Source: Pseudomonadota bacterium (GTDB taxonomy: Bacteria; Myxococcota_A; Polyangia; Polyangiales; Polyangiaceae). From it: a stretch of 6,863 nucleotides of DNA. The notes beneath the pieces are model-generated. The model saw only the letters and a program-made list of their open reading frames with translations. It searched no databases and was not told the DNA's origin. A program made the position numbers and the translations under genes. Below, in pieces: positions 1 to 6,863 of the stretch (position 1 is the stretch's first letter; every line of letters starts with the position of its first letter). The stretch is from contig JAEYOT010000880.1 in assembly GCA_023411445.1 (NCBI GenBank), positions 1 to 6,863 on the forward strand, written 5' to 3'.

Positions 1-508
1 GCGCCACGCTTTCCCACATGGGCTCCAATCCAACCGTGCCCTCGATGCAGAAGGCGTCCGCTGGCGGCTTGGCCACGAAGTCCATCGGCATCACGGTGGT
101 GACGCCCTTCTCGCCCTTGCCAGTCCAGGCGCAGCCATGCCAATCCTTCTCTACCCAGTAGCCGGGAGGGCCTTCGCCCGGCACGACGGTACCGCTACCG
201 CCCATGCCGCTGCCGGCGGCGCCCGGCGTCGAGCCGGCCGCGCCTGGGTTGCCTCCCGCCGCGTTACCAGCAGCGTTGCCATTGCCGCCGACCCCGTCCG
301 AACCTCCGGTGGGGTTGCCCGTGTTGCCGGCTACCGAGGTCGCGCCTGCCGTGGGAACACCGGTGTTACCGGCGAAGCTACCGTTGCCGCTGATGTTGCC
401 GCTAGCGCCGGTGCCGCCGTTGTTGTTGGGGTCGTCCGTGCCGCTGCAAGCACCCGCCAGGGATACGGCACCAGCTATGAGGAGTAGTGATGCGAAAGAC
501 TTCGTCAT
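1..508 (-). CDS. Secreted lipoprotein with Gly/Asn-rich linker, C-terminus beyond left edge (partial)
   Basis: The frame reads from ATG at 508 down to base 1 without a stop: 169 codons plus one base, with the 3' end outside the window. Residues 1-20 are a signal peptide (Lys3, then a hydrophobic stretch) ending L-A-G-A before Cys21. This is a slightly atypical lipobox; Ser follows the Cys, which would suit outer-membrane sorting. Residues 27-107 are a low-complexity Gly/Asn/Ala/Thr linker, probably a flexible stalk. From about residue 114 a folded domain begins, with G-Y-W, W-H-G-C-A-W-T, P-M-D-F and F-C-I-E-G-T-V; Cys126 and Cys154 could form a disulfide. From memory this resembles an uncharacterised secreted domain common in Polyangia, possibly glycan-binding; I could not verify that. 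No clear Shine-Dalgarno sequence precedes the ATG, but the signal peptide and lipobox support the start. It is transcribed away from the sco-oxidase pair. The gene call is firm and the function unknown. Confidence 0.85.
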   Translation of the reverse strand, partial: MTKSFASLLLIAGAVSLAGACSGTDDPNNNGGTGASGNISGNGSFAGNTGVPTAGATSVAGNTGNPTGGSDGVGGNGNAAGNAAGGNPGAAGSTPGAAGSGMGGSGTVVPGEGPPGYWVEKDWHGCAWTGKGEKGVTTVMPMDFVAKPPADAFCIEGTVGLEPMWESVA

Positions 509-681
509 GGCGCACGAAGCTTGGCACGAGATTGTGGGAGCGGTTCCAGATCGCGTCCGTTTTGCGCGAAATTCCGGGGAGACGCTGCAAACATCCGGTG
601 TAGGTGCAGTGGAGAGGTAAAGATACCTTCCGATTGACATGGAGGCCGGCACGTGGGTGGGAAGCTGGACGGTAGCTCACG
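509..681. other. Intergenic region upstream of the lipoprotein gene
   Basis: This 173-base gap lies between the decayed Cys-rich gene and the lipoprotein start. It should hold the lipoprotein promoter if that gene has its own. I see no convincing -35/-10 pair. A short dyad at 615-628 (AGGTA, four-base loop AAGA, TACCT) is too small to call a terminator or operator. Confidence 0.4.
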
Positions 682-1228: not shown

Positions 1229-1252
1229 ATGTCGGTAATAGTGGGAGCTAGT
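1218..1252 (+). promoter_or_regulatory. Predicted mRNA hairpin covering the sco ribosome binding site
   Basis: ACTAGTTCCCA (1218-1228) can pair with TGGGAGCTAGT (1242-1252) over 11 bp, with one G-U pair and a 13-base loop. The 3' arm contains the only Shine-Dalgarno-like sequence, GGGAG at 1243-1247, and the first two bases of the GTG start codon. If it forms, ribosome entry at sco would be restrained. A six-pair hairpin upstream (1205-1210 with 1215-1220, loop TATG) overlaps the 5' arm by three bases and could compete. An eight-codon frame, ATG at 1212 to TAA at 1238, runs through the 5' arm, so a translating ribosome would open the stem. This is a structural prediction by eye. Confidence 0.4.
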
Positions 1253-1880
1253 GTCAGCCACCACACTTCGCCGTCAGCAGGGTCGCCTAGCGCGAAGCAT
1301 CGCTACGGTGATCGTGCTGGCGAGCCTATGCGGCGCCTGTCGGCGCGAGCCGGAAGCGATCCAGCACGGAGTTTTCCAGGGTATTTCGTTCGTCGACCAG
1401 AACGGCGCCCCCGTTGAGGTAAGCGCCCTTTCCGAGCAGGCGCTGGTCGTCAGCTTCATGTTCACCAGTTGCCCCGTCGTGTGTCCTCGGCACACGAAAG
1501 GCTTGGTGGAAACTCGCGCTGCCTTGCCAGCAGCCGTGCGCGACCGCATCCGCTTCGTGTCCGTCTCCGTGGATCCGGACAACGACACACCCCAAGCGCT
1601 CAAAGCCTTTGCGCAGGCGCACGGTGCGGACGAACCGGGTTGGTCCTTCGTCCGAGCGGACGCGGCCAGCACGCAGCGGCTCACGGCTCGTCTGGCGGCG
1701 TTCGAGCCTGGCGTTGCGCCCACGCCGTCAGCGCACGGCACCACTCTCTACTTATTCGACCGCGGTGGCCGGCTCGTCCAACGCTACCGCGGTGCTCCGC
1801 TCGATGTTTCGCACCTCGCGCGCGAGCTCGTGGCCCTCGATGAACTGAAACCTTCCGGAGCGCGTTTGGCCAGTAACTGA
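1251..1880 (+). CDS. Sco1/SenC/PrrC-family copper chaperone (thioredoxin-like), membrane-anchored
   Basis: This 209-residue protein has the hallmarks of Sco proteins: a T-S-C-P-V-V-C motif with the copper/redox cysteines Cys74 and Cys78, the D-P-D-N-D-T-P signature about 40 residues later, and the conserved copper-ligand histidine His162 in S-A-H-G-T-T-L-Y-L-F-D. Residues 16-29 form a hydrophobic segment ending before Cys30. The lipobox (C-G-A-C) is imperfect, so the anchor could be a lipid or an uncleaved helix; the domain faces the periplasm either way. Family members bind Cu(I)/Cu(II) and act in copper insertion into cytochrome oxidase CuA or other cuproenzymes, or as thiol oxidoreductases. 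The GTG at 1251 is the first start after the in-frame TAG at 1239-1241. It has GGGAG only three bases upstream, which is close. It lies 41 bp before the copper radical oxidase gene, probably in one operon, so that protein is a likely client. The family call is firm; the client is inference. Confidence 0.93.
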   Translation: MSATTLRRQQGRLARSIATVIVLASLCGACRREPEAIQHGVFQGISFVDQNGAPVEVSALSEQALVVSFMFTSCPVVCPRHTKGLVETRAALPAAVRDRIRFVSVSVDPDNDTPQALKAFAQAHGADEPGWSFVRADAASTQRLTARLAAFEPGVAPTPSAHGTTLYLFDRGGRLVQRYRGAPLDVSHLARELVALDELKPSGARLASN

Positions 1881-1909: not shown

Positions 1910-1939
1910 GAGTCACTTCCCATGCTCGAGTCACATCCC
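1910..1939 (+). repeat. Short direct repeat flanking the oxidase start codon
   Basis: GAGTCACTTCCC (1910-1921) and GAGTCACATCCC (1928-1939) match at 11 of 12 positions, 18 bp apart, one on each side of ATG 1922. The spacing keeps frame, so it may be a small in-frame duplication that moved the start region, or a chance repeat. Confidence 0.4.
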
Positions 1940-2029
1940 GAGATCAGTCGACGTGTATTTAACGCTTCGCTCTGGCGGCGCGCGCTGCTCAGCGGAGCCA
2001 GCCTGACGGCGTTGGTTGCCGCTGCTTGC
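1922..2029 (+). other. N-terminal Tat-like lipoprotein signal of the fusion protein
   Basis: Residues 9-13 read S-R-R-V-F, matching the start of the twin-arginine consensus, and a second R-R pair is at 19-20. A hydrophobic stretch (21-35) ends V-A-A-A before Cys36, followed by Ser-Ser. Ala at -3 makes the lipobox non-ideal. A Tat signal would fit a protein folding around a cofactor, but c-type haem is attached after export. Sec export using the second R-R as an ordinary basic n-region is a fair alternative. Confidence 0.6.
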
Positions 2030-5000
2030 TCTAGCCAAAATGGCTCGGAAACGAGCGAGGGGGCGGTCATCGCCGCGCAGGTCACCCCGCTCGAGGCGCC
2101 GGATCCGACGGTCGTGTTGCCCATCACGCTGCCGGAGCCGCAGGACCCGATGTTCGCCGGCCTCACCATCCCGGCGGACGCGCCGCTCCGCGGCATGTGG
2201 TCGGGGTCCCGCGCTTGGCCGCTGAACGGCTTGCACTCCGCCCTGCTCCCGAACGGCCAGGTGCTCACTTATGGCACCCCGGCGGGTAACGCCTCCACGC
2301 AAGACGGTCGAACGTTTGACGTGTGGGATCCGGCGCAAGGCTTCACCGGCGTGAGCCACCGCACCACCTACAAGGCGCAGCAGGTGAACAGCTTCTGCAG
2401 CAGCGCCGCGTTCTTGCGTGATGGCACCTTGCTCGTGTCCGGCGGCAACGACCCGCTCGCCAGCAGCGCGTTTTCGGCCGCCACCGCCGAGGTCACCACC
2501 TCGCCGTTCATGATGGCGGACGAGCGCTGGTACGGCTCGCTCATCACGCTGGCGGACGGGCGCCTGCTCATGTTGGGCGGCTCCACGCCGTACGGCGCGC
2601 TCCGTGCCCACCAAGATCCGGCTAGCGCCATCAGCGCTGGAACCGTTTCCATGACGCCGGAGATCTTCGAGCCCAGCGCTGGATTTCGTAGCCTTTTCGG
2701 AGCTTACAGCCGTGAGGCGTTTGGCCCGGACCATCACCGCTACTGGTACCCCCGCGCGTGGCAAGCCCCGAACGGCGAGGTGTTCGGCATCTCTTCGGAG
2801 AAGATGTGGTACCTGAGCTACGAGGGTGCGGGCTCCGTGCGCGTGGTCGGTGATTTCAAGACCGGCGTGAACGCGACGACGCGCCCGAACATCGGTCCCA
2901 CGAGCGCGGCCGTCATGTACGCGCCGGGCCTCATCCTCCAGGTGGGCGGCAACGGTTACTACGACGGGCACGCGACGCCGAGCAGCGCGCTCGCCACCGT
3001 CGTGGACATCAACGGCGCTACGCCGGCGCTCAGCGACACCAACCCGATGGCCTTCGCCCGCCAGTGGCCGAGCGCCACCGTGCTGCCGGATGGGCGCGTG
3101 GTGGTGACGGGCGGCACGCGCTACGCGAACAATGGCGGCGCTGACGCCGTGTACGAGGCCGAGCTGTGGGACCCCGCCACCGGCAACTGGACGACCGGCG
3201 CGCGCGCGGCTCACATCCGCGTGTACCACTCCGCGGCCATCTTGATGCCGAACGGCACCGTGCTCTCGACCGGCGGTGGAGCGCCAGGGCCGGTCAACAA
3301 CTTGAACGCCGAGGTTTACTTCCCGCCGTACCTGTTCCGGTCCACGCCGGAGGGCGGCGCGGAGCTGGCGCCGAGGCCGCGCATGGCCGCCGTGAGCACG
3401 CTAGCGCTCGGGCATGGTGAGCAGCTCGACGTGGAGCTCGCGGGGGCGCCGGAGATCCAGCAAGCCGTGCTGATCGGCGCGAGCAGCGTGACGCACTCCT
3501 TCAACACGTTTCAACGCCGGCTGGAGCTGCCTTTCCTGCAGGAGGGGGCGCGCCTGTCCGTGCAGATGCCGCCCAGCGGCCTCGACGCACCGCCTGGCTA
3601 CTACACGCTGTTCGTGCTGGACGCGGAAGGCGTCCCCTCGAACGCGGTGCTGCTCTCCTTGGGTGAGGACATGGCGGCCCCGCCCGTGTCCACGCTGCTC
3701 CCGCGCGGCGACGTGATCACGCTCCAGAGCCTCAGCTGGCCGGACTACGGCGTCGCCGTGAACGCGCAGTCGCTGGGCGTTATCAGCTTGCTCGGCGACA
3801 GCCCGAGCGCGGCGGATCTCAGCCGCGCGCGGTACTTGGTGCGCGACGGCTTGGCTGACAGCAACTGCGTGTCACTCGAGTCCACCGTCACTCCCGGCCA
3901 GTTCCTGCGCCACCAAGGGTACCGCGTCCGCTTGTCCACCAACGACGGCACGGAGCTATTCAAGGCCGACGCCACGTTCTGCCCCGAGCTGGGCTTGTCT
4001 GGAACCGGCATCAGCCTCCGCTCCAAGAACTTCCCGGCGAACGTGCTGCACCACCGCAACTTCGAGCTGTGGCTCGACCCGGTGGAGTCAGGCGCGACGT
4101 TCGCGGCCGACGCCACGTTCACGCTGCGAGAGCCGCCGCTGCCCACCTTGCCCGCCGTGGCCGCCCCCATCGTGGCCAGCGGCGACACGGTGAGCTACGC
4201 GCCCGCCATCTCGCTCCAGGGCGCGACTTACATCTGGGACTTCGGTGATGGCAGCGCGCCGTCCGATCCTTCCAGCACGCCCGACGCGACCCACGCCTAC
4301 GCGGCTCCCGGCCTGTACCTGGTCACGTTGACGGTGCGGCTCGCCGACGGTCGCACCGTCACGAAGACGTTCATGCAAGCCGTGCGTGGCGAAGTGACGG
4401 CGGGTGCCCCTCGCGCCTCCTCGCAGCTCGCGGTGGAGACGCGGCCTGCCGGGGCCGAGCGCATCTGGGTCGTCAACCCGGACACCGACACGGTGTCGGT
4501 GATCGACGGCGCCTCGCTCACTCGCAGCAAAGAGATCGCAGTCGGAGCTGCGCCGCGCAGCGTGGCGGTAGCGCCGAACGGGCGGATCTGGGTGGTGTCG
4601 CGCGACGCCGCGACCATCTCCGTCATCGATCCGACGAGCCTCACGGTGACGCAGACCTTCAGCCTCCCGGCGCGCTCGCGGCCTTACGGCTTGGTCTTCG
4701 CGCCCAGCGGCGCCGCCTACGTGAGCTTGGACGCGACCGGACAGCTCTTGGAGCTCAACGGCGCCACCGGCGCCGTGCAAAACACGCTCGACGTGGGGCC
4801 GAACCCGCGTGGGTTGTCGCTGACGGCGGACGGCTCTCGTCTGCTGGTCTCACGCTTCATCAGCCCGCCCGCTCCCGGCGAGGGCAGCGACAGCTTGGTG
4901 ACGAGCCAGGCCATCGCGGAAGTGCGCGCCGTGGATCTGCCGGCGATGGCCAGCGCGCGCGTGTTGACGCTGGGTCACAGTGATCGCCCCGACGGCTCGG

Positions 5001-6863
5001 TGCAAGGTCGCGGTCTGCCGAACTACCTCGGCGCGGCCGCGATCGCACCGGACGGCAAGAGCGCTTGGGTGCCGTCCAAGCAAGACAACATCGCGCGTGG
5101 CGTGCTGCGCGACGGTCAAGATCTGGATTTTCAGAACACCGTGCGCGCCGTCACTTCACGCATCGACTTGACGACCGAGAGCGAGAACCTGGAGCAACGG
5201 CTCGATCACGACAACGCCGGCCTCGCTTCTGCCGCGCTGTTCCACCCGAGCGGCGTGTACTTGTTCGTCGCGCTGGAGACGAGCCGCCAAGTTGCAGTCG
5301 TGAACGCGCTCACCGGCGCGGAGTTGATGCGCGTTGAGGTCGGGCTGGCGCCGCAGGGCCTGGCGCTCTCAGCCAATGGTCAGCGCCTCTACGTGCACAA
5401 CTTCATGGGGCGCACCGTGAGCGCGATCGACCTGAGCGCGCTGGTGACGAACGGCGAGCTCAAGAGCACGACGCTCGCCACCGTGGCGGCGATCACGACG
5501 GAGAAGCTTGCGAGCAACGTGCTCCTCGGCAAGCGCCTGTTCTACGACGCGCGCGACGTTCGTTTGGCGCGCGACGCGTACATGAGCTGCGCGTCCTGCC
5601 ACGCGGACGGCGGCGATGACGGTCGGGTCTGGGACCTGACCGGCCAAGGCGAAGGCTTGCGCAACACCATCAGCCTGATCGGTCGAGCTGGCGCGCAAGG
5701 AAGGCTGCATTGGACTGGCAACTTCGACGAGGTGCAAGACTTTGAAGGCCAGATCCGCACGCTCGCGGGCGGCACTGGGCTGATGACGGACGCGGCGCTG
5801 GCCACCGGAACTCGCAGCCAGCCGCTCGGTGACGTGAAGGCCGGCGTGAGCGCGGACTTGGACGCACTGGCGGCGTACGTGAAGTCCTTGACCCAACCCT
5901 TGCCGAGCCCTTACCGGACGAGCACTGGGTTGACGGCGGCGGGAGCCGCTGGCCGCGTCGTGTTCACGAACGCCGCCTGCAATAGCTGCCACTACGGCGC
6001 GACCTTCTCGAAGGAAGACGGTACCGGCCTCGAAGACATCGGGACCATCCGTAGCTGGAGCGGGAAGCGCCTGGCCGGGCCGCTCCTAGGCCTCGACGTG
6101 CCCACGCTCCGCGACCTGTTCGCCACCGCGCCGTACTTGCACGACGGCTCGGCGAAGACGCTGGAAGAAGCAGTCTTGGCGCACCAGGGCGTGACCCTGG
6201 CCGGACAGGACTTGAGCAACCTGGTCGAGTTTCTCCGCCAGATCGACGGAACGGAGCCGGCCGTCGACAAGCCGTGCTCGCCTAAGTCCTACGAGGCCGA
6301 GAGCATGTACAAGTCGACCGGCGGCTCCGTGTCGGGCGGCTGGAACATCTGGTCCAACGGCTACATCTCGACGCAGCACACCTTCACCGCGGGAGTGACG
6401 ACCATCACCGTCCTGGCGTCTGGCTCCGTCGCGGCCAACGTGTGGCCGAACCTGCGCGTCTCCGTCGGGGGCACGGTGCTGGGCAACAAGACCGTGAACA
6501 CGACCAGCTACGCACCGTACACCTTCTCCTTCACGGCCACGAGCGGCGCGAAGGAGATCAGGGTCGAGTTCACGAACGACCTGAACCAGAACGGGCAAGA
6601 TCGCAACCTGTACGTGGATCGGGTCGACGTCGGCTGCGGCAGCGCGCCTCCCGTGCCCACGTGCACGGACGGCGAGAAGAACGGGACGGAAACCGGCGTT
6701 GATTGCGGCGGGTCGTGCAGCGCGAAGTGCGGCAACGGCCAGACGTGCGGCGTGGCAGCGGATTGCACGAGCGGCATCTGCACGGGCGGTATCTGCCAAG
6801 CGGCGCCTTCGTGCACGGACGGCGTGAAGAACGGCACGGAGACGGGCGTTGATTGCGGCGGAT
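1922..6863 (+). CDS. Giant multidomain secreted copper radical oxidase / di-heme cytochrome fusion, C-terminus beyond right edge (partial)
   Basis: The frame is open from ATG 1922 to the window end, at least 1647 residues. Modules in order: Tat-like lipoprotein signal (1-36); galactose/glyoxal oxidase-type Kelch propeller plus C-terminal beta domain (about 85-582); AbfB/CBM42-like (about 598-738); PKD (about 742-822); YVTN-type propeller (about 846-1176); di-heme cytochrome c peroxidase/MauG-like (about 1188-1445); CBM60/36-like (about 1456-1573); Cys-rich repeats from 1581. It is expected in the periplasm or on the cell surface, lipid-anchored or exposed. ATG 1922 is the first usable start after the in-frame TAA at 1874-1876. 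The Shine-Dalgarno sequence is weak (GAG at 1910-1912), suiting translation coupled to sco. Codon use is uniformly G/C-ending with no break between modules, so the fusion looks genuine. Galactose oxidases are usually about 500-650 residues, so this is a large elaboration. The true substrate is unknown. Confidence 0.95.
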   Translation, partial: MLESHPEISRRVFNASLWRRALLSGASLTALVAAACSSQNGSETSEGAVIAAQVTPLEAPDPTVVLPITLPEPQDPMFAGLTIPADAPLRGMWSGSRAWPLNGLHSALLPNGQVLTYGTPAGNASTQDGRTFDVWDPAQGFTGVSHRTTYKAQQVNSFCSSAAFLRDGTLLVSGGNDPLASSAFSAATAEVTTSPFMMADERWYGSLITLADGRLLMLGGSTPYGALRAHQDPASAISAGTVSMTPEIFEPSAGFRSLFGAYSREAFGPDHHRYWYPRAWQAPNGEVFGISSEKMWYLSYEGAGSVRVVGDFKTGVNATTRPNIGPTSAAVMYAPGLILQVGGNGYYDGHATPSSALATVVDINGATPALSDTNPMAFARQWPSATVLPDGRVVVTGGTRYANNGGADAVYEAELWDPATGNWTTGARAAHIRVYHSAAILMPNGTVLSTGGGAPGPVNNLNAEVYFPPYLFRSTPEGGAELAPRPRMAAVSTLALGHGEQLDVELAGAPEIQQAVLIGASSVTHSFNTFQRRLELPFLQEGARLSVQMPPSGLDAPPGYYTLFVLDAEGVPSNAVLLSLGEDMAAPPVSTLLPRGDVITLQSLSWPDYGVAVNAQSLGVISLLGDSPSAADLSRARYLVRDGLADSNCVSLESTVTPGQFLRHQGYRVRLSTNDGTELFKADATFCPELGLSGTGISLRSKNFPANVLHHRNFELWLDPVESGATFAADATFTLREPPLPTLPAVAAPIVASGDTVSYAPAISLQGATYIWDFGDGSAPSDPSSTPDATHAYAAPGLYLVTLTVRLADGRTVTKTFMQAVRGEVTAGAPRASSQLAVETRPAGAERIWVVNPDTDTVSVIDGASLTRSKEIAVGAAPRSVAVAPNGRIWVVSRDAATISVIDPTSLTVTQTFSLPARSRPYGLVFAPSGAAYVSLDATGQLLELNGATGAVQNTLDVGPNPRGLSLTADGSRLLVSRFISPPAPGEGSDSLVTSQAIAEVRAVDLPAMASARVLTLGHSDRPDGSVQGRGLPNYLGAAAIAPDGKSAWVPSKQDNIARGVLRDGQDLDFQNTVRAVTSRIDLTTESENLEQRLDHDNAGLASAALFHPSGVYLFVALETSRQVAVVNALTGAELMRVEVGLAPQGLALSANGQRLYVHNFMGRTVSAIDLSALVTNGELKSTTLATVAAITTEKLASNVLLGKRLFYDARDVRLARDAYMSCASCHADGGDDGRVWDLTGQGEGLRNTISLIGRAGAQGRLHWTGNFDEVQDFEGQIRTLAGGTGLMTDAALATGTRSQPLGDVKAGVSADLDALAAYVKSLTQPLPSPYRTSTGLTAAGAAGRVVFTNAACNSCHYGATFSKEDGTGLEDIGTIRSWSGKRLAGPLLGLDVPTLRDLFATAPYLHDGSAKTLEEAVLAHQGVTLAGQDLSNLVEFLRQIDGTEPAVDKPCSPKSYEAESMYKSTGGSVSGGWNIWSNGYISTQHTFTAGVTTITVLASGSVAANVWPNLRVSVGGTVLGNKTVNTTSYAPYTFSFTATSGAKEIRVEFTNDLNQNGQDRNLYVDRVDVGCGSAPPVPTCTDGEKNGTETGVDCGGSCSAKCGNGQTCGVAADCTSGICTGGICQAAPSCTDGVKNGTETGVDCGG
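2174..3667 (+). other. Copper radical oxidase module (galactose/glyoxal oxidase family, AA5-like)
   Basis: Residues about 85-582 align with galactose oxidase at every cofactor position. Cys159 (N-S-F-C) corresponds to Cys228. Tyr204 (R-W-Y-G, 45 residues later; 44 in the enzyme) corresponds to Tyr272, the partner of the thioether bond. Tyr435-His436 (R-V-Y-H-S) corresponds to Tyr495-His496, and His525 (V-T-H-S-F-N-T-F-Q-R-R) to His581. Kelch-like G-G repeats recur (about 174, 219, 342, 397, 451). The C-terminal beta domain includes the P-P-G-Y-Y-T-L-F-V-L-D strand and G-V-P-S. Family enzymes oxidise a primary alcohol or aldehyde with O2 and release H2O2. The stacking Trp290 of galactose oxidase is replaced by Thr222, so classical galactose oxidation should not be assumed; glyoxal oxidase or GlxA-like activity is equally possible. 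Confidence 0.9.
3713..4135 (+). other. AbfB domain (CBM42-like, arabinofuranose-binding family)
   Basis: Residues about 598-738 carry the AbfB signature twice, as expected for this beta-trefoil: Q-F-L-R-H-Q-G-Y-R-V-R-L with K-A-D-A-T-F-C, then S-L-R-S-K-N-F-P-A-N-V-L-H-H-R-N-F-E-L-W-L-D-P with A-A-D-A-T-F. CBM42 family members bind arabinose side chains of arabinoxylan, so this module points to a hemicellulose target. Binding specificity here is inferred from the family. Confidence 0.8.
4145..4387 (+). other. PKD domain
   Basis: Residues about 742-822 show the PKD core W-D-F-G-D-G (772-777), then T-H-A-Y-A-A-P-G-L-Y-L-V-T-L-T-V (790-805). These Ig-like domains are spacers or interaction modules in secreted proteins. 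Here it links the copper oxidase/AbfB half to the propeller/cytochrome half. Confidence 0.88.
4457..5449 (+). other. YVTN-type beta-propeller domain
   Basis: Residues about 846-1176 contain recurring blades such as I-W-V-V-N-P-D-T-D-T-V-S-V-I-D, then I-W-V-V-S-R-D-A-A-T-I-S-V-I-D, and later L-Y-V-H-N-F-M-G-R-T-V-S-A-I-D, with A-V-A-P-N-G and A-L-S-A-N-G strand starts between them. A less regular insertion (about 1020-1085) interrupts the blades. Such propellers commonly precede di-heme cytochrome modules in secreted bacterial proteins. I see no catalytic residue set; a scaffold or docking role is likely. Confidence 0.85.
5483..6256 (+). other. Di-heme cytochrome c peroxidase/MauG-like module
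   Basis: Residues about 1188-1445 contain two c-type haem sites: C-A-S-C-H (Cys1223, Cys1226, His1227) and C-N-S-C-H (Cys1353, Cys1356, His1357). Other family marks are L-G-K-R-L-F-Y-D (1202-1209), L-H-W-T-G-N-F-D-E (1262-1270), and V-P-T-L-R-D-L-F-A-T-A-P-Y-L-H-D-G-S (1393-1410) followed by K-T-L-E-E-A-V. Members reduce H2O2 or, like MauG, use it to oxidise a protein residue; others are non-peroxidase electron carriers. Distal ligands cannot be assigned by eye, so peroxidase activity is plausible but not shown. Haem attachment requires a periplasmic cytochrome c maturation system, not seen here. Confidence 0.88.
6287..6640 (+). other. CBM60/CBM36-like carbohydrate-binding module
   Basis: Residues about 1456-1573 start with S-Y-E-A-E-S-M (as in CBM6/35/36-type domains) and end with V-E-F-T-N-D-L...D-R-N-L-Y-V-D-R-V-D-V, a pattern I associate with calcium-dependent xylan-binding CBM36/CBM60. 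The Asn/Asp-rich end would supply the calcium site. Family choice between CBM60, CBM36 and CBM6/35 is uncertain; a beta-sandwich glycan binder is likely. Confidence 0.7.
6662..6863 (+). repeat. Cys-rich tandem repeat, 150-bp (50-residue) period, truncated by window end
   Basis: Two copies begin at 6662 and 6812, exactly 150 bp apart. Each starts C-T-D-G-x-K-N-G-T-E-T-G-V-D-C-G-G; the first continues with S-C-S-A-K-C, T-C, D-C-T-S-G-I-C-T-G-G-I-C, eight further cysteines likely paired as disulfides. The copies are very similar at DNA level, suggesting recent duplication, and more copies may follow beyond the edge. Similar repeats are frequent in secreted Polyangia proteins (from memory); a stalk or cell-surface tether is a likely role. 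Confidence 0.85.

Follow-up and report, generated by a model that had tools for sequence, protein, structure and literature searches.

The window, the whole stretch of 6,863 nucleotides analysed, carries a SCO1/SenC copper-chaperone gene and, 41 bases beyond its end, the start of a long gene encoding a single polypeptide that combines a copper radical oxidase (CRO), complete in its cofactor residues, with carbohydrate-binding domains, a propeller and a di-haem c module (Table 1). The initial annotation had placed the two redox modules in one uninterrupted frame, which was borne out by the open frame found here, and had given their span as 2174-6256; that span is only the inner part of a larger gene with a frame that runs off the window end. 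A Pfam search of the translation from position 1922, in which all matches exceeded the curated cut-offs, confirmed the CRO and CCP_MauG domains. The domain order is CRO, AbfB/CBM42, PKD, YVTN propeller, di-haem c, CBM60 and a Cys-rich tail. The original observation did not mention the two carbohydrate-binding domains (AbfB and CBM60), the PKD domain, the propeller or the Sco gene upstream. The three closest homologues of the fusion protein (P0001-P0003), of 1745-1756 aa, have a similar Cys-rich tail followed by further sequence, and a CBM2 domain in their Pfam list.

Table 1. Positions of genes, domains and predicted cofactor residues in the window (residue numbers refer to the fusion protein; rows are those of the conservation alignment).
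Feature	Position	Strand	Basis or conservation
SCO1/SenC copper-chaperone gene (CxxxCP motif)	1251..1880	+	PF02630, 66.2 bits, cut-off 22.8
Fusion gene, open at window end	1922..6862	+	1647 aa read
N-terminal signal sequence and possible lipobox ending at Cys36	1922..2029	+	by-eye reading of sequence
CRO module (80-578)	2159..3655	+	Pfam, galactose oxidase match, fold of relative L052
Cys159, aligned with galactose oxidase thioether Cys	2396..2398	+	119/121 rows, 2 gaps
Tyr204, aligned with galactose oxidase radical Tyr	2531..2533	+	120/121 rows, 1 gap
Tyr435-His436 copper ligands	3224..3229	+	each 120/121 rows, 1 gap
His525 copper ligand	3494..3496	+	121/121 rows
AbfB/CBM42-type carbohydrate-binding domain (602-734)	3725..4123	+	PF05270, 128.9 bits, cut-off 22.8
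PKD domain (742-819)	4145..4378	+	PF00801, 48.7 bits, cut-off 23.5
YVTN/YncE-type seven-bladed propeller (820-1185), hydrazine synthase beta-like	4379..5476	+	
Di-haem c module (1192-1459), CCP/MauG/hydrazine-synthase-gamma superfamily	5495..6298	+	PF03150, CCP_MauG
First haem c site CASCH (1223-1227)	5588..5602	+	121/121 rows
His1263-Trp1264	5708..5713	+	Trp aligns with Trp of CCP FWDGRA, His with preceding Phe
Second haem c site CNSCH (1353-1357)	5978..5992	+	C1353 and H1357, 119/121 rows (2 gaps)
His1421, predicted second axial ligand of haem 2	6182..6184	+	aligned with CCP Met, MauG/MbnH Tyr
CBM60 carbohydrate-binding domain (1494-1571)	6401..6634	+	PF16841, 59.9 bits, cut-off 28.2
Cys-rich CTDGxKNGxETGVDCGG repeats, cut by window end	6653..6862	+	sequence

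The N-terminal sequence suggests that the fusion protein is likely exported, as a surface or periplasmic lipoprotein. Of 72 fusion ORFs, 42 have a crude lipobox-like pattern among their first 90 aa; the locus ORFs were called by a mechanical gene finder, which places some starts too far upstream, as in L004 and L008. The Sco and fusion genes are probably in the same operon; a search for a promoter-like site in 1000-2200, a weak test, found none.

The copper radical oxidase module

The N-terminal module matched Glyoxal_oxid_N (PF07250) with 43 bits against a cut-off of 37.5 and GO-like_E_set (PF09118) with 66.3 bits against a cut-off of 25. Residues 80-576 matched galactose oxidase with a best E value of 2e-42, and a model of the relative L052 matched 1gof in Foldseek with an E value of 5.9e-36. 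The Pfam domains and the fold of L052 thus describe the Kelch-type seven-bladed propeller and E-set of CROs, a fold shared with galactose oxidase and other AA5-type enzymes (1gof, bacterial 9g43 and fungal glyoxal oxidase 9n3u).

The five residues expected of a CRO, the Cys-Tyr pair, the second Tyr and the two His copper ligands, were at the positions first proposed (Cys159, Tyr204, Tyr435, His436 and His525) and nearly invariant in an alignment of 121 rows comprising the query and 120 homologues. Among the genome loci they were invariant in every row with a residue at the position. We take the counterparts of Cys159 and Tyr204 in galactose oxidase to be residues 228 and 272, respectively. The C-terminal E-set and the Cys-Tyr, Tyr, His, His set are common to the fusion and the AA5-type enzymes; the fusion differs in having RWY where galactose oxidase has RGY, and only the fusion continues, within one chain, into a propeller and di-haem module. 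The protein scored 139.5 bits against the 800-bit cut-off of the GlxA equivalog NF052501 and is not assigned to GlxA.

The propeller and di-haem module

The second propeller matched YNCE with 37.5 bits (cut-off 27.1) and the di-haem module matched CCP_MauG (PF03150) with 45 bits (cut-off 25.6); the di-haem family profile matched 3o5c (E 3.7e-21) and 5c2v_C (E 1.6e-20). The di-haem module, placed initially about 640 residues downstream, has its two CxxCH sites beginning at residue 1223, 645 residues past the end of the CRO domain, and at residue 1353. At least two such motifs occurred in 0 of 20,000 shuffles of the fusion protein. Cys1356 was retained in 118 of 121 rows (2 gaps, 1 Tyr). Of the 76 fusion ORFs, 69 have two copies of the exact motif, five have one, one has three and one has four; among the five with a single motif L072 is cut, whereas the remaining four read CxxxCH at their second site. 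Counting alignment rows with a residue at the position, His1263 was kept in 120 of 120 and Trp1264 in 114 of 120 (6 Phe); among the loci, Phe replaced Trp1264 in the close relative L001. His1421 was His in 119 of 119 alignment rows and 75 of 75 locus rows with a residue there.

Two c-haem sites in a CCP_MauG-type sequence are shared with the bacterial di-haem CCPs (3o5c, 1eb7), as is the Trp in most fusion members. Bacterial CCPs have an axial Met on the second haem and a distal His, of the His71 type, on the first, whereas in the fusion His1421 aligns with the Met of 3o5c and the stretch at the aligned distal position, TGQGEGLRNT, contains no His. MauG and MbnH are of the same superfamily and are likewise not known to carry the CCP-type distal His. 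Their second haem has an axial Tyr, present in five of five neighbouring MauG/MbnH-type proteins, where the query has His; the family scores were 39.5 bits against 443.85 and 43.5 against 362.85. A classical CCP identity was rejected on the ligands, and a MauG identity on the axial ligand and family cut-offs. The superfamily and haem sites of the di-heme peroxidase-like module in the initial annotation stand. With ligands of neither kind, only membership of this superfamily makes a reaction with H2O2 plausible.

As judged from its sequence, the closest architecture to the module is the beta-gamma pair of hydrazine synthase (5c2v; fused in Ca. Scalindua japonica), in which a seven-bladed propeller likewise directly precedes a di-haem c module. 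The CASCH...WDL sequence is common to both, and the predicted His/His coordination of haem 2 may be, His1421 aligning with a His of 5c2v_C in an alignment spanning a seven-residue insertion. The Trp of the fusion is as in CCP and MauG, whereas the hydrazine synthase gamma subunit reportedly has His144 there; the hydrazine synthase chain is also without a CRO. The NCBIfam hydrazine synthase beta-gamma model gave 65.1 bits against a cut-off of 1250. A full-core model built from L052 had a pTM of 0.61. In fold searches with the propeller-di-haem model the lists were filled by propeller matches, and no di-haem chain was found among the best 50 listed matches of the L052 model. The beta-gamma pair of hydrazine synthase is considered to act on NO, not H2O2 (PMC12758564).

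Distribution and history of the fusion

The CRO, propeller and di-haem module were together in all of the best 120 of 2228 homologues, with domain calls made by profiles built from fused loci. CRO and di-haem module were in one ORF in 76 of 80 kept genome loci, the other four being split or cut. The loci span Myxococcota, Proteobacteria, Verrucomicrobia and one Planctomycetota bin, and include the named isolates Paracidovorax wautersii DSM 27981, Rubrivivax rivuli KYPY4 and Rivibacter subsaxonicus DSM 19570. An assembly chimera, to which absence of the architecture from related genomes would have pointed, is rejected by these occurrences, and with nothing beyond the unusual length in its favour any assembly or gene-model artefact is exceedingly improbable.

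Three CRO lineages are involved in fusion to the same propeller-di-haem module. The fused state requires eight changes on the CRO tree (at least six forced) and six on the propeller-di-haem tree (at least five forced), both trees being from FastTree only and the CRO tree carrying long-branch warnings. The CRO tree retained 75 of 78 fused rows; it left out P0241-P0243, P0256, P0338, any CRO protein no longer than 550 aa and any row whose CRO stretch was at most 350 aa. Related unfused CROs were common in this set (104 rows). Seven of the 30 CRO-less proteins shorter than 720 aa were left out of the propeller-di-haem tree (two frameshift fragments and five others judged fragments). L021 and L022 were assigned to lineage B from their position on the propeller-di-haem tree only.

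The module was found in 81 of 377 sampled Myxococcota genomes, in the same frame as a CRO in only seven and with no CRO in frame in 74. Its greater frequency without an in-frame CRO implies that its core role does not have to rely on peroxide from a CRO. Stand-alone and otherwise fused forms of the module exist, one survey of the CRO-less forms having a length limit that favoured short proteins and fragments. No two-gene CRO/di-haem arrangement was found among the homologues examined. The candidate pairs P0241/P0124, P0243/P0128 and P0256/P0153, matched by the identical lengths of their longest contigs, were rejected as natural two-gene versions; P0241 and P0256 end in garbled sequence, and each second half begins within the module and has no signal sequence, so that frameshift breaks are likely.

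Neighbouring genes

As in the window, Sco adjoins the fusion gene in 56 of 80 loci, and in 44 of 55 with at least 1.5 kb on both sides. In contrast, none of the 20 CRO-less di-haem loci retrieved had a Sco gene nearby. Sco was not found in 24 of the 80 fusion loci, 11 of them with room, nor in L134-L137; the 24 include 14 of the 19 lineage B loci. By-eye reading of the 11 revealed no obvious other copper protein. Besides one antisense-type ORF cluster (18 loci, minus-strand ORFs, 1 of 19 members on the plus strand), Sco was the only widely common neighbour in the clustering, all other clusters covering at most eight loci. The conserved linkage to a copper chaperone is consistent with a working copper site.

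Alongside the fusion and Sco genes, 24 of 80 loci contain a gene for a monohaem cytochrome c; 23 of the 24 belong to CRO lineage A, and none of the loci placed in lineage B or C was found to have this gene. A peroxiredoxin gene lies near Sco in four loci (three Methylophilales/Methylophilaceae and one betaproteobacterial bin), the family identity being confirmed for one of the four. A separate MauG/MbnH-type di-haem gene adjoins some Sco-less fusions. MbnP plus MauG/MbnH-type fusions are the neighbours in L040 and L079, and MauG-type di-haem proteins near YtkA-like sequence in L134, L135 and L137. In L136 no Sco, cytochrome or MauG-type neighbour was found. In L093 and L095 a gene of the glucose/sorbosone dehydrogenase family comes after a CRO-less module protein.

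The Streptomyces CRO GlxA depends for its maturation on Sco and on the haem peroxidase DtpA, which is also proposed to remove the H2O2 that GlxA makes (PMC4736821). There, CRO, Sco and haem protein are linked by mutants and DtpA is a separate one-haem DyP protein, whereas here the link is by gene order and fusion and a di-haem c module is in cis.

Proposed function

The mechanism suggested in the initial annotation, an internal H2O2 relay, is supported only in part, by two real modules that are fused and conserved together. The reading we favour, with a rough probability of 0.42, is that the di-haem module would consume in cis the H2O2 that the CRO is predicted to produce as it oxidises bound polysaccharide. 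The adjacent Sco would load copper, and the carbohydrate-bound CRO would oxidise an alcohol or aldehyde group of the polysaccharide with release of H2O2. Haem 1 (Cys1223-His1227, with Trp1264 and His1263) would react with the H2O2, and electrons would arrive via haem 2 (predicted ligands His1357/His1421) from a small c-type cytochrome, such as that encoded next door in one lineage. The net effect would be protection of the copper enzyme and the cell surface from peroxide. The conserved fusion, its occurrence in several CRO lineages, the Sco, cytochrome c and peroxiredoxin neighbours and the GlxA/DtpA precedent argue for consumption of peroxide in cis. Against it stand the ligand pattern, the likeness to the NO-linked hydrazine synthase, the mostly CRO-less module of Myxococcota, the Sco-less loci and the Phe at position 1264 in 6 of 120 homologues. 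Where a separate MauG/MbnH-type gene is present (L040, L079, L134, L135, L137), its product could do the peroxide chemistry instead.

An electron relay, in which the copper site would reduce the di-haem module and the module a soluble cytochrome c, is rather unlikely; the protein would then serve in part as a copper-radical dehydrogenase, much as cellobiose dehydrogenase does. The cytochrome c gene in 24 of 80 loci would suit such a relay, as would the dehydrogenase-family gene after the two CRO-less module proteins. Known CROs, however, pass two electrons straight to O2, approximately 700 residues and several domains separate the copper and haem sites, a very low-potential haem would be a poor acceptor from copper, and the cytochrome gene was found in no lineage B or C locus.

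Also unlikely is a role in maturation or activation, in which the di-haem module would make or maintain the Cys-Tyr/Tyr-radical cofactor or oxidise Cu(I), taking in cis the part proposed for DtpA with GlxA. The copper- or maturation-type neighbours (Sco in 56 of 80 loci, MbnP plus MauG/MbnH-type fusions, MauG-type proteins near YtkA-like sequence) and the Streptomyces precedent (PMC4736821) point this way, but the module is common without a CRO, and the 104 rows of related unfused CROs indicate that the cofactor does not generally need the module in the same chain.

It is doubtful that the propeller-di-haem part is an independent enzyme or docking unit with a redox reaction of its own, like that of hydrazine synthase beta-gamma but with another small molecule, fused to the CRO merely for co-targeting to the polysaccharide surface. 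The 74 of 81 module-bearing Myxococcota genomes with no CRO in frame, the stand-alone and otherwise fused forms (within the length limit of the survey noted above), the His/His pattern of haem 2 and the propeller order would all fit; the repeated association with several CRO lineages argues against it.

Significance

The CRO-di-haem fusion is real, is assembled from known parts and is apparently undescribed in the literature searched, no description having been found in open-access sources. A further and improbable reading is that the di-haem centre would convert CRO-made H2O2 into a high-valent oxidant, whose target would be the glycan to which the protein is bound, or else lignin or protein nearby. 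If true, one bacterial chain would do the work of the separate CROs and peroxidases of wood-rotting fungi, and the MauG superfamily would gain a further ligand class, His/His beside the His/Met of CCP and the His/Tyr of MauG, recruited to several copper oxidase lineages.

In several phyla, and often beside a copper-chaperone gene, the fusion would unite naturally in one chain a copper enzyme that makes peroxide and a haem module whose superfamily uses it. In cultured Burkholderiales it would allow tests of the loading and activation of bacterial CROs, of their protection against the H2O2 that they make, and of the role of a hydrazine-synthase-like propeller-di-haem module outside the anammox bacteria.

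Domain organization of the fusion protein

The forward-strand frame opens with ATG at 1922 and has no stop codon by 6862, bearing out the single uninterrupted frame described in the initial annotation. The five cofactor residues of the copper radical oxidase (CRO) and the two CxxCH sites described there were also confirmed by alignment, and Pfam searching of the translation from 1922 placed the CRO, CCP_MauG and every other listed domain above its curated cut-off. Two CxxCH sites arose by chance in 0/20,000 shuffles of the query composition. Among the matches listed, the three closest homologues contain a CBM2 domain and all are longer than the query as read. A search of 1000-2200 found no promoter-like site, although this is a weak test.

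Features of the window, the fusion protein and related loci (L numbers)
Feature	Location	Basis or remark
SCO1/SenC gene, CxxxCP motif	1251-1880	Pfam; ends 41 bases upstream of fusion
Gly/Asn-rich lipoprotein-like ORF	2-652, minus strand	open at window edge; no Pfam match
CRO (Glyoxal_oxid_N + GO-like_E_set)	residues about 80-578	Pfam
AbfB/CBM42	residues 602-734	Pfam
PKD	residues 742-819	Pfam
YNCE-like propeller	from residue about 816	Pfam
CCP_MauG, best stretch	residues 1199-1273	Pfam
Di-haem module	residues about 1192-1459	extent from PDB matches
CBM60	residues 1494-1571	Pfam
Cys-rich tail	after CBM60	sequence; cut by window end
MauG-type gene	L134:4419-5828	
MauG-type gene	L135:8274-9995	
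MauG-type gene	L137:3191-5020, minus strand	
MbnP-MauG/MbnH-type gene	L040:7125-8900	
MbnP-MauG/MbnH-type gene	L079:1251-3065	
Doubled-module ORF	L078:7464-15128	
Tandem CRO genes	L097:4052-13915	

Distribution and conservation

The fusion is genuine and occurs widely. A whole-protein search scored 7996 candidates, 2228 of them with E ≤ 0.001, and CRO, propeller and di-haem parts were all present in the 120/120 best-listed of these homologues, as detected with profiles built from fused loci. Scanning species genomes yielded 267 relatives; the best 80 loci, which were kept and many of which are metagenome bins, carry record titles of Myxococcota, Burkholderiales, other Proteobacteria, Verrucomicrobia and one Planctomycetota bin. 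CRO and di-haem lie in a single ORF in 76 of the 80; the fusion is split between frames in L023 and cut by contig ends in L044, L076 and L080. When the query and the 76 fusion ORFs were aligned (77 rows), Tyr435, His436, His525 and the first CxxCH were kept in 77/77 rows, Cys159 and Tyr204 in 74/74 rows with letters, and the second-site Cys, Cys and His in 76/76 rows with letters, CxxxCH replacing CxxCH at that site in L065, L021, L022 and L053.

The architecture was also recovered in Myxococcota, where the initial annotation had proposed looking for it: of 377 sampled genomes, 81 yielded the di-haem module (E up to 1e-50) and 25 a GO-like domain, and in seven the two share one open frame, a count to which broken contigs may hide additions. 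Seven shared frames against 81 module-bearing genomes indicate that the fusion is patchy and that, in the phylum, the module is seen mostly without a CRO. The module was present in 8 of 300 sampled genomes from the order of L011 (query the homologous protein P0210, E up to 1e-60).

One ORF of L078 combines a CRO with two PKD-propeller-di-haem modules of near-identical score, which were either duplicated recently or produced by the assembly. Three CRO genes stand in tandem in L097, one fused and two unfused.

The CRO tree, a quick one with long-branch warnings built from 75 fused and 104 unfused rows, divided the fused CROs into lineages A, B and C (30, 18 and 27 rows), with lineage C, which includes the query, nested among unfused CROs; the fused state required eight changes, at least six forced by starred branches. 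On a quick propeller-di-haem tree (77 fused, 26 alone, four with a different N terminus) six changes were needed for the fused state, at least five of them forced, and the rows of CRO lineage A were scattered (seven changes, at least five forced). On a plain reading, the halves appear to have been repeatedly fused, lost or exchanged, gain and loss looking alike on these quick trees.

Identity of the di-haem module

Sequence and profile comparisons placed the module in the CCP/MauG/hydrazine-synthase-gamma superfamily, and hydrazine synthase beta-gamma has the same domain order as the query, propeller then di-haem. His1421 aligns with the Met of CCP 3o5c, with Tyr in five MauG/MbnH-type neighbour proteins and, with an insertion intervening, with a hydrazine synthase gamma His; the second haem of that subunit is reported to be bis-His and of low potential (PMC12607021, PMC12758564). 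The Trp of the CCP FWDGRA motif has its counterpart in Trp1264, a position occupied by Trp in 114 and by Phe in 6 of the 120 rows with letters, and the Phe that precedes it in the motif is replaced by His1263, a His in 120/120 rows. Whereas CCP has an axial Met and a distal His, the query alignment has no His at the distal position, and His1421 likewise sets the module apart from the Tyr-bearing MauG/MbnH-type neighbours. The module has its own ligand set and is therefore a superfamily member, neither CCP nor MauG. The di-haem peroxidase-like module originally annotated holds as to superfamily and CxxCH sites, but its ligands fit neither enzyme. The propeller-di-haem model of the query was of high overall confidence (pLDDT 90.9, pTM 0.92), with lower confidence in parts of the di-haem module; fold searches with it covered the propeller only.

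Genes adjoining the fusion

Sco adjoined the fusion in 56 of the best 80 loci from the 267 relatives, sharing its strand in 55 and diverging from it in L031. The distance is within 1.3 kb in all but L023, whose fusion is split, and Sco lies upstream or downstream depending on lineage. It was present in 44 of the 55 loci that have 1.5 kb or more on either side, and by CRO lineage in 23/30 of A, 5/19 of B (L021 and L022 included) and 28/31 of C plus unassigned loci. CxxxCP was retained in 54 of the 56 Sco neighbours. Aside from an antisense-type ORF cluster in 18 loci, Sco was the only neighbour family common to more than eight loci. In 24 loci it is joined by a small monohaem cytochrome c gene; 23 of these loci belong to lineage A and the other is cut. 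Near CRO-less modules Sco was found in 0/20 loci, within the sequence examined at each. Its linkage to the fusion is not universal, none being found beside the Myxococcota fusions L134-L137. A peroxiredoxin-type gene lay near Sco and the fusion in L034, L038, L043 and L057, from Methylophilales/Methylophilaceae and one betaproteobacterial bin.

The Sco-less fusions of L134, L135 and L137 are each adjoined by a MauG-type di-haem gene of its own. A YtkA-like ORF (match above cut-off) lies just upstream of that in L134, the N-terminal part of those in L135 and L137 has a weak YtkA likeness below cut-off, and L105, another of the seven Myxococcota fusion genomes, carries a relative of the L135 gene. 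In the Verrucomicrobia loci L040 and L079, the gene overlapping the fusion start joins an MbnP domain, which exceeds its Pfam cut-off, to a MauG/MbnH-type di-haem part; the NCBIfam models for MbnH and MbnP score below theirs. MbnP, going by its family name, binds copper. In these two loci the gene is apparently an alternative to Sco. We infer copper or cofactor maturation as the common theme of the fusion neighbours. The CRO-less propeller-di-haem proteins of L093 and L095 carry Big_5 and PKD domains, and a glucose/sorbosone dehydrogenase-family gene comes next to each on the downstream side.

Proposed function

In Streptomyces lividans, lack of either Sco or the haem peroxidase DtpA impairs the maturation of the CRO GlxA; in that report (PMC4736821), DtpA is proposed to act on Cu(I) and probably also to remove GlxA-made H2O2, and galactose-oxidase-type genes are noted to co-occur with sco in certain Burkholderia. 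Based on this precedent, the same logic was adopted for the fusion, in one chain. Consumption of H2O2 within the chain is argued against by the di-haem ligand pattern, by how often the module exists with no CRO attached and by the separate MauG-type genes adjoining some fusions; the main rivals are that the di-haem module serves as an electron relay or activates the copper site. Every part of the fusion is already known, whereas the arrangement and the ligand set appear undescribed in the open-access papers searched. The most likely working is one in which the oxidase would act on bound polysaccharide and release H2O2, which the di-haem module of the same chain would consume, given a presumed electron supply to the haems and a presumed localisation of the protein.
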